A stretch of DNA of 64,000 nucleotides from Apostichopus japonicus (taxonomy: Eukaryota > Echinodermata > Holothuroidea > Aspidochirotida > Stichopodidae), in NCBI RefSeq assembly GCF_037975245.1, contig NC_092582.1, positions 6,116,001 through 6,180,000 of the forward strand, read 5' to 3'. Both the position numbers and the translations under genes were made by a program. The notes beneath the pieces are model-generated. The model did no database searches. It was not told the DNA's origin and was given only the letters and a program-made list of their open reading frames with translations. The number at the start of each line of letters is the position of its first letter. Positions within the stretch are counted from its first letter, which is position 1. Shown here one piece after another: positions 24,619-27,700 of the stretch.

Positions 24619-24724
24619 ATGACGTCAGGACCATACAACTATTCATACATTTTTAAGTACATTATTATAGGTGATATGGGTGTAGGGAAGTCATGTCTAC
24701 TGCATCAGTTTACAGAAAAGAAAT
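24619..24724 (+). CDS. RAB14: RAB14 coding exon 1 (P-loop)
   Basis: 35 codons plus one base, ending KK before AAAT|GTAAGT. Begins [20 protein letters not shown]; the vertebrate start is MATAPYNYSY. Confidence 0.95.
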
Positions 24725-27700
24725 GTAAGTATTTTCAGCATGGGTGTTACCATCATAATTTGTTTTGTTTTTTTGAGGATATTTACCTCCCAACAAAAAT
24801 ATTTACCTCCCAACAAAAACAACAAGAAAAGAAAGGTAAGTATTTTCAGCATAGGTGTTACCATCATAATTTGTTTTGTTTTTTTGAGGATATTTACCTC
24901 CCAACATGTTGATAACTTTGATCAGCATAATGAGATGCATTCTGATGGAAATTGCATACATAATTCCTTTATCTTACATGTACTTTTGTCCTTGAAAATA
25001 GCTATTTAAAACTGGGAGATATCTATAAGATGCTGCAGCTTGTAGGTCTTTCCCCCCCCCCCCCCCCACCCAACAGGAGATGTGCCCTGCTATGATTCAA
25101 CCTGTAGAGTAGTTCACCAACACATCTGCATATATTTACTATGGTAAACAAACTCCATAAAGCCCTGAGTTGCTCTGTAGAATATAAATTGAGTTATTTG
25201 TGGATTCCTCTCAGCACAAAGTACTCCTTTTTATTCATACTGTATATGCAAGAAGCAGTCAGCTACCTTTTAAGTGTATGGAGTAACTAAGCAGTTTCTT
25301 TAAAAAATAAAAAAACCTGACAGAAAATGTGATTGGTTAAAACATTACCATACCCAAGGAGTTTGCATAGCATTATTGGTCAAATTAAATGTTTTTTATT
25401 AGCCATGATTTTAAGCAGATATTTGAACAGCAATGAGAGGAAAGATAATCAGAAACTATTTACTGTACATCAATATTCTAGGTTTGTTCAGTTATTTGGA
25501 AGAATTATGGACAGTATAATGTCTATTAACTTGAAGAGCCGGGCAGTTCAAAATAGCCATGAAGCCTTTGCAAGTTTGCATTGCTTATGAAAATAAGCTT
25601 AAATGCAAATAAATCTGGGCTACTGTACAGTGGAAATTTTCACAATTTAACGGATTCATGGATTAAAAATATTTTGTTCCCTTCACTCATCGCACATACA
25701 TCTTTTGAAGTCATCACACATAGTAACACATATTTTTCCAACAAAAAAGAAAGAAAGAAGGTTAATGCTTTAACCTGTTAAAAGATCTTTTCTTATGATA
25801 AGCGTTTCGTTGAATTGACCTGTGCCTCCGTTTCTCTTTTCTAGTTATGGCAGACTGCCCGCACACGATTGGTGTTGAGTTTGGAACCAGGATAATTGAA
25901 GTATCAGGGCAGAAGATTAAACTTCAGATCTGGGACACAGCTGGACAAGAAAGATTTAGGTAACAATCTCTTTAAAGCAACTTTAGCTTTTTAATAGAGT
26001 GTGGACGGATTCTTCAAAAAATGAGCACCTTCTTGATTTCACTCTGTTATCCCAAAATAATGTTAATTCATGATCTCACAGAGTTTAAACTTGAAATGTG
26101 ACCCTACCGTATAACAAAAACATATATATTTGTGTGGGAAAGGTGATTACTGTATCTCAATAGTAAATCAGTATGTAGGAATTTAATCACTATAAAAGTT
26201 TAAACAAGTTTGTGTTGTTGGTTGATACCACTTTGAACTGCTGCAGTGAGAATAAGAAACTTGGGATATCTTAGTGAAAGAGAAACCTAAATTGTAATCA
26301 CTGTACAAGTTTACACAAGTTTGTGTTGTTGGTTGATACCACTTTGAACTGCTGCAGTGAGAATAAGAAACTTGGGATATCTTAGTGAAAGAGAAACCTA
26401 ATTGTAATCACTGTACAAGTTGACACAAGTTTGTGTTGTTGGTTGATACCCTATTGAACTGCTGCAGTGAGAATAAGAAACTTGGGATATCTTGGTGAAA
26501 GAGAAACCTAAACTGCAATCACCATACAAGTTTACACAAGTTTGTGTTGTTGGTTGATACCACTTTTAAACTGCTGCTGTGAGAAGAAAAAACTTGGGAT
26601 ATCTTGGTGAAAGAGAAACCTCAATTGCAATCACTGTACAAGTTTACACAAGTTTGTGTTGTTAGTTGATACTCTGTTAAACTGCTGCAGTGAGAATAAG
26701 AAACGCTTCAGTTAAATAAGTTGTTTGGATACATTTACAGTAGATAAATGTGTAACTTAATGTAGCATAACTACAGGATATAGTTTATTAGCTTGATAAA
26801 GTCAATTTTCATTTTGATTTTTTTTTTATCTGATTTGTTGAAATTTCCCATTTCTTTTCAAATGTGTTTAATACAAATAATAAAATATGTCTGGGTGGTG
26901 GGAGGTTGAGAATCCATTCAGTTTCCTTCACAAATTGATTTGCTTAAAATTTTCAAAAGTAAAAAATCTGCTTGCACTATCTACATACCCTCTATATAAT
27001 ATTAGCAAAGGAGAGCCCTGTATTGTATGTCCTACGTACAGACTCATGTGTCATAAATTTGTAATTGCAGTCCACACAGCACATAGGTAGATATCTTGGG
27101 TAATTTAATAGCTTTCATTATACAATGCAGATGATCACTTCTGGTTCAAGAAACTCTCACTGCTTGCAGCCACATTGAAGTGAACAAGTACACACAGATA
27201 TGTGAATACCATGCACATGTCTTTAGTGAAACGGTGCTGTTATGTATGCGTTTGCTATAGGTTGTGTACTACAATAAAATCCTCCATTGACTTACACACT
27301 ACATATATGTCACTTTCAAAGGCTGCCAGAGCAAATATAGAAATTTTCAACTGACATATTCTGTCTGTACCTACCATATAATAGCTGATGGCTTGGGCTA
27401 TTATAGAATGTATGTTCAATTTGTTGCCACCATGTCCTTTTAGATTTTGTCCTAGAACAGGTCAAAGTTTAGCATAGGGCTCCCCAACCCATTCGTCGGC
27501 CTGTTTAAACCCAGGATTTTCTTAAATGCCTCAAATCACCTTCAATCCTCCATATTTTTAGACCATCAATGGTTTATTCCCCCCTCTTTCACCAGCCAAG
27601 CATCAGACACCAGCGACGTAGCCAGGAATTTGAAAGGGGGGGAGCACTTTTTGCGACTGATATGGATTTTCAAAATTGTAGGCACGACTATCTGAGCGGA

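Follow-up and report, generated by a model that had tools for sequence, protein, structure and literature searches.

The question raised by this locus is whether an apparently stronger copy of a 5' splice site, placed in frame behind the original in the conserved gene RAB14, gives rise to a second isoform, and how the gene would tolerate it.

RAB14 and its duplicated exon end

The window, i.e., the whole 64 kb stretch of Apostichopus japonicus DNA that was analyzed, contained an intact RAB14 open reading frame on the + strand, which encodes 216 aa in six coding exons placed on the basis of homology and splice dinucleotides. We found that the protein had a full Rab G domain (Pfam Ras, 3e-61) nearest to RAB14 and a prenylatable C-terminus (CSC). 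Its best three PDB matches (1z0f, 4drz and 4d0g) were all RAB14, and it was identical to RAB14 chain 1z0f at 164 of 173 residues over the aligned stretch. Because the rest of the gene is intact and this match is so close, selection on the canonical protein is expected. An acceptor-like site (ctcatttcag, last base 24600, pyrimidine fraction 0.81) precedes the first coding exon, so this exon is probably internal, following a 5' untranslated exon, and 124 or 235 nt long depending on the donor. The features are as follows, a slash marking the exon-intron border.

24601-24724, + strand: first coding exon of RAB14 (ATG at 24619, putative 5' end at 24601), ending at the ancestral donor AAAT/GTAAGT
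25845-25959, + strand: coding exon 2, joined in the same phase to either donor
29411-29540, 30568-30686, 32347-32415 and 32914-33025, + strand: remaining RAB14 coding exons, stop included, with the C-terminal CSC
24714-24795, + strand: duplication copy 1 (11 exonic and 71 intronic bases)
24796-24824, + strand: 29-nt filler (second exact copy of the 20-mer ATATTTACCTCCCAACAAAA, then an A/C-rich stretch)
24825-24906, + strand: duplication copy 2 (two substitutions relative to copy 1)
24725-24835, + strand: optional exon extension of 111 nt (37 stop-free codons in the RAB14 frame)

The two copies form a gapless direct repeat of 82 nt with a spacing of 111, identical at 80 of 82 positions (98%) and differing at 24724 (T) versus 24835 (G) and at 24742 (G) versus 24853 (A). 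Self-BLAST within the window gave an E value of 2.65e-33 for this repeat, which is therefore not due to chance. The original prediction had described a tandem copy of the end of exon 1 and about 80 bp of intron; the tandem copy is indeed there, with the corrections that 71 intronic bases were copied and that filler makes up 29 of the 111 bases. This filler, largely a repeat of the adjoining 20-mer, parts the copies and thereby sets their spacing at 111. ATATTTACCTCCCAACAAAA occurs as an exact tandem pair (24779-24798 and 24799-24818, the pair spanning 24779-24818). With only one 20-mer the extension would shrink to 91 nt and shift the frame, and two make up the 111 nt that preserve it, so that the frame of the extension is owed to the extra 20-mer. 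The duplicated block had no further match in the rest of the window at E 0.01. Pattern scans of prokaryotic and viral contig collections gave 0 matches each, as expected for animal DNA.

Could the repeat have arisen in assembly, by placing two haplotypes or overlapping ends one after the other, or be an allele private to the animal that was sequenced? Two differences in 82 bases would fit the heterozygosity of some outbred animals. Several features argue against a misjoin, however. If copy 2 were the other haplotype, it would encode Val at the residue that presumably corresponds to Phe28 of Ras, an unlikely allele. Moreover, a misjoin would not readily account for the 29 nt of filler and the exact 20-mer copy that it contains, and the copies are equal in length even across a T7 run. 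An assembly error is thus unlikely, and artefact and private allele taken together are quite improbable.

The copies and the templated-looking filler point to a local tandem duplication, probably a recent one, in which a broken DNA end would have been filled in and rejoined so that the exon end and 71 intron bases were copied. Templated insertions are said, in the title of a review, to be the smoking gun of polymerase-theta end joining. On the other hand, it has been reported that in wild-type cells, at breaks with 3' overhangs, fill-in by CST and Pol alpha-primase together with end joining makes most small tandem duplications, and that polymerase theta partly compensates once this route is lost (PMC8355091, in the excerpts available). 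Since these papers point to differing routes for such duplications, the repair route is what we infer, and the same applies to the recent age of the event. In the 64 kb, 10 local duplication clusters were detected (repeats at least 40 long, with a spacing of at most 400 and E of at most 1e-8), including four single two-copy events, suggesting that this stretch of the genome often makes local duplications. Four events of about 70 nt landing at random would hit about 0.02 donors for RAB14; such hits would be rare per gene, yet expected many times per genome.

Other repeats and genes were also observed in the window. The next RAB14 intron harbors a tandem array (26180-26704) with a period of 111, 4.7 copies and 91% matches. 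A link between this array and the donor spacing was considered and rejected given the lack of other matches to the duplicated block noted above; as the two are unrelated in sequence, the shared length of 111 nt looks coincidental. A dispersed repeat was present three times (17964-18059, 19180-19275 and 27687-27782), once within a RAB14 intron. With the copy at 19180 as the reference, the remaining two showed identities of 65 and 79%. A 53-nt unit was repeated 24.8 times at 52043-53359, the end of which overlaps a tRNA-like match at 53340-53412 (Rfam RF00005, 34.8 bits). On the - strand, an ORF at 10955-11419 contained the transmembrane hairpin of P5A-type ATPases (PF23143, 2.3e-25), perhaps representing an ATP13A1-like gene. 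The same strand had a Golgin A2-like segment at 50177-50692 (PF15070 GOLGA2L5, 1.4e-18) and a weak Tektin-family match at 45230-45703 (PF03148, 29.8 bits, below the curated cut-off of 34.3).

Predicted competition between the two donors

Donor 1 reads AAAT/GTAAGTAT, with the intron starting at 24725, and donor 2 reads AAAG/GTAAGTAT, with the intron starting at 24836. They were scored with a donor position weight matrix (PWM) and a U1 snRNA 5' end that are human values and may not be those of the host.

24725-24730, + strand: ancestral 5' splice site GTAAGT (T at -1; PWM 4.93 bits; U1 duplex -7.3 kcal/mol)
24836-24841, + strand: duplicated 5' splice site GTAAGT (G at -1; PWM 8.46 bits; U1 duplex -12.5 kcal/mol)

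By these human standards, donor 2 exceeds donor 1 by 3.5 bits and by 5.2 kcal/mol of U1 pairing, which bears out the claim that the downstream donor has the better fit to U1. Among the 3588 GT sites on the + strand, 18 scored at least as high as donor 1 and two at least as high as donor 2 (the donors themselves counted). The donor 2 site, AAGGTAAGTAT, occurred once in the window when both strands were searched. Thus, two donors with homologous flanks, each with GTAAGT, lie ahead of one acceptor.

The difference at -1 can be related to the protein. Phe was found at position 36 in all five PDB alignments inspected residue by residue (three RAB14, RAB4A and RAB4B; 5 of 380 matches), and the T at -1 of donor 1 opens the Phe36 codon, which explains why this T is kept. 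Freed from coding for Phe36, the copy now has G at -1 and a longer match to human U1. The -1 bases at the five RAB14 donors assigned by homology, donor 1 included, were T, G, A, C and G; with G absent from -1 in three of these five, non-G donors evidently work in this gene.

Our preferred reading, to which we assign a probability of roughly 0.58, is that the duplication made a competing donor and that the insert isoform is a tolerated splicing load, with the canonical donor kept in use by selection. The two donors would compete for one acceptor, and a share of mRNAs would carry the 111-nt extension and encode a 253-aa RAB14. Donor 1 would still supply enough canonical mRNA, its useful share being kept because selection acts on RAB14, and the insert protein would have no selected role. 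As a matter of judgement and not of computation, we consider it fairly probable that donor 2 is used in 10% or more of transcripts, and possible, though not the outcome we would expect, that it is dominant.

Use of donor 2 is expected by analogy with two published systems. In a designed human reporter library (PMC6783452, in part), tandem donors of equal strength favored the first, and the data suggested that the stronger one dominates when strengths are unequal. The second comes from a human family in which 74 bp spanning the donor of MSH6 exon 9 are duplicated (c.3936_4001+8dup), for which the excerpted report (PMC9818763) describes a haplotype without the normal transcript; among clones, the product of the duplicated donor and exon skipping were found at 7:1, and one saliva sample had only the skipped form. 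Like the RAB14 event, the MSH6 event is a tandem duplication spanning an exon-intron border with both donors present. In MSH6, however, the downstream copy is used and exon skipping occurs too, whereas use of donor 2 in RAB14 is predicted. In addition, only eight intronic bases follow the first MSH6 donor and the products are out of frame; in RAB14, the duplicate takes in 71, its two copies are no longer identical and the extension keeps the reading frame.

These comparisons do not all favor our reading. Strong dominance of donor 2 would leave canonical RAB14 scarce, which would be hard to square with a fixed allele, and the preference of the reporter library for the first of equal donors may also count against the tolerated-load interpretation by analogy. 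The same preference supports a different outcome, somewhat unlikely in our view, in which donor 2 is silent or nearly so because exon-1 enhancers and first-come recognition confine splicing to 24725, with the copy remaining inert. The strong conservation of RAB14, and its donors that lack G at -1, would also fit such an inert copy. However, the copy is clearly stronger by the human matrix, a condition under which the library data suggest dominance of the stronger site (PMC6783452, in part); furthermore, it brings the purine-rich exon end AGAAAAGAAA along and sits closer to the acceptor. The original prediction had posed a choice, either the weaker donor is protected or an isoform exists. This alternative proved to be a false one, as both may hold and a mixture is plausible given the competition data (PMC6783452, as excerpted).

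It is also conceivable that the 111-nt GT...AG segment is itself a mini-intron or a recursive-splicing step, in which donor 1 joins 24836 and restores AAAT/GTAAGT. The T to G change makes AG/GT at 24834-24837, so that the segment starts with GT and finishes with AG, and tandem-duplicated AG/GT proto-splice sites are a proposed route of intron gain (PMC2891723, in part). The RAB14 event resembles this route in being a tandem duplication that involves AG/GT and whose length can be divided by three. However, the route requires a working acceptor in the copy, and none is apparent in RAB14. The would-be acceptor is A-rich: its pyrimidine fraction over -20 to -5 was 0.12, which places it among the bottom 1.8% of the 3674 + strand AGs, as compared with 0.62 to 0.94 for the five coding-intron acceptors and the putative one at 24600. 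Other AGs lie 4 and 9 bases upstream of it. With no polypyrimidine tract, we rejected recursive splicing or a new mini-intron, either of which would be very improbable.

The predicted extended protein and its possible role

The claims that the 111 bp are stop-free, that exon 2 at 25845 joins in the same phase and that the product has 253 aa all agreed with our analysis. In this conceptual product, K35 is followed by 37 added residues and then by Val replacing Phe36, as the junction codon changes from Phe (T/TT) via donor 1 to Val (G/TT) via donor 2. The in-frame insert is located between the P-loop helix (alpha1) and switch I of this small GTPase. Phe36, counting from the P-loop lysine in an alignment by eye, is taken here to be the equivalent of Phe28 in the Ras numbering. 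It has been reported that Ras Phe28 contacts the guanine base and that H-Ras, Cdc42 and Rac2 exchange nucleotide faster when this Phe is replaced by Leu (PMC6321241). Pfam Ras matched the 253-aa form in two stretches with 185.8 bits, compared with 206.2 for the canonical form. The insert had no match in PDB at E up to 10, and thus no known domain was found. The RNA fold of 24601-24960 was not extra stable (z 0.25; 62 of 100 shuffles at least as stable). Judged by its sequence, the insert protein would most likely be a poorly binding or mis-cycling Rab; the position of the insert and the loss of the Phe28 equivalent support the original view that such an isoform would be unlike a normal GTPase.

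Such an insert need not be dead, as illustrated by RAC1B, a fast-exchanging form of RAC1 with 19 extra in-frame residues behind switch II (PMC6356296, in part). Both have an in-frame insert by a switch region with an expected change in nucleotide exchange. In contrast, RAC1B derives from an exon of its own (3b), which has been described only in amniotes, and its expression and biochemistry have been measured, whereas the RAB14 form would derive from an alternative donor before switch I. A narrow search of the open-access literature, covering titles and the beginnings of abstracts, found no RAB14 insert isoform, which is weak evidence of absence, and the excerpts of PMC9714508 (which names RAB14 in one eQTL sentence only) and PMC3504004 contained none.

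Might the insert isoform, then, be a selected and regulated variant that follows the logic of RAC1B and alters nucleotide cycling and partners? We examined how readily its features would arise by chance. Of 7019 overlapping 37-codon windows in RAB14 introns, 726 were stop-free; combined with the one-in-three odds of a length divisible by three, an open, in-frame extension would be found in about 3.4% of cases. With respect to the donor, 27 single changes can be made in its 9 nt; by the human matrix, only T to G at -1 gained more than 0.5 bit, and 23 of the 27 cost more than 0.5 bit. If copy 2 had acquired two changes at random over its 82 bases, this one would be among them with a probability of 0.8% at equal rates; the chance of a gain of more than 2 bits was 0.36% when transitions were twice as likely as transversions, and these odds roughly halve if either copy could have mutated. 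The open frame, the improvement of the donor by one of just two changes, the extra 20-mer that supplies the frame and the precedent of RAC1B that functional inserts are possible (PMC6321241 and PMC6356296, both in part) would all be in line with selection.

However, these probabilities are post hoc, as the site was chosen for looking this way. At a divergence of about 2%, approximately 0.11 changes are expected in the nine bases, and therefore nothing can be concluded from the bare fact that donor 2 has survived: even without use, the site would probably be intact. The lack of PDB matches to the insert and the loss of the Phe28 equivalent also argue against a selected isoform. While the improvement at -1 is improbable under neutrality, and the post hoc figures leave room for selection, we consider a selected variant improbable. 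A more specific version, slightly less probable again, is that regulated use of donor 2 would yield a fast-cycling or dominant-interfering 253-aa RAB14, i.e., a RAC1B-like switch created by a single repair event, with the copy improved to G at -1 and the 20-mer giving the frame.

What the locus offers

The mechanism put forward in the original prediction is plausible. Each element of it belongs to a known kind, and the locus is a good small natural experiment and not a surprising system. It provides a natural test of donor competition, in which the 82-nt contexts are near-identical, the 9-nt sites differ at -1 only and the upstream -1 base in RAB14 is fixed by a conserved codon. The locus bears on how an animal copes when a conserved gene acquires a duplicate donor stronger than the original, and on whether in-frame duplicates truly yield new isoforms.
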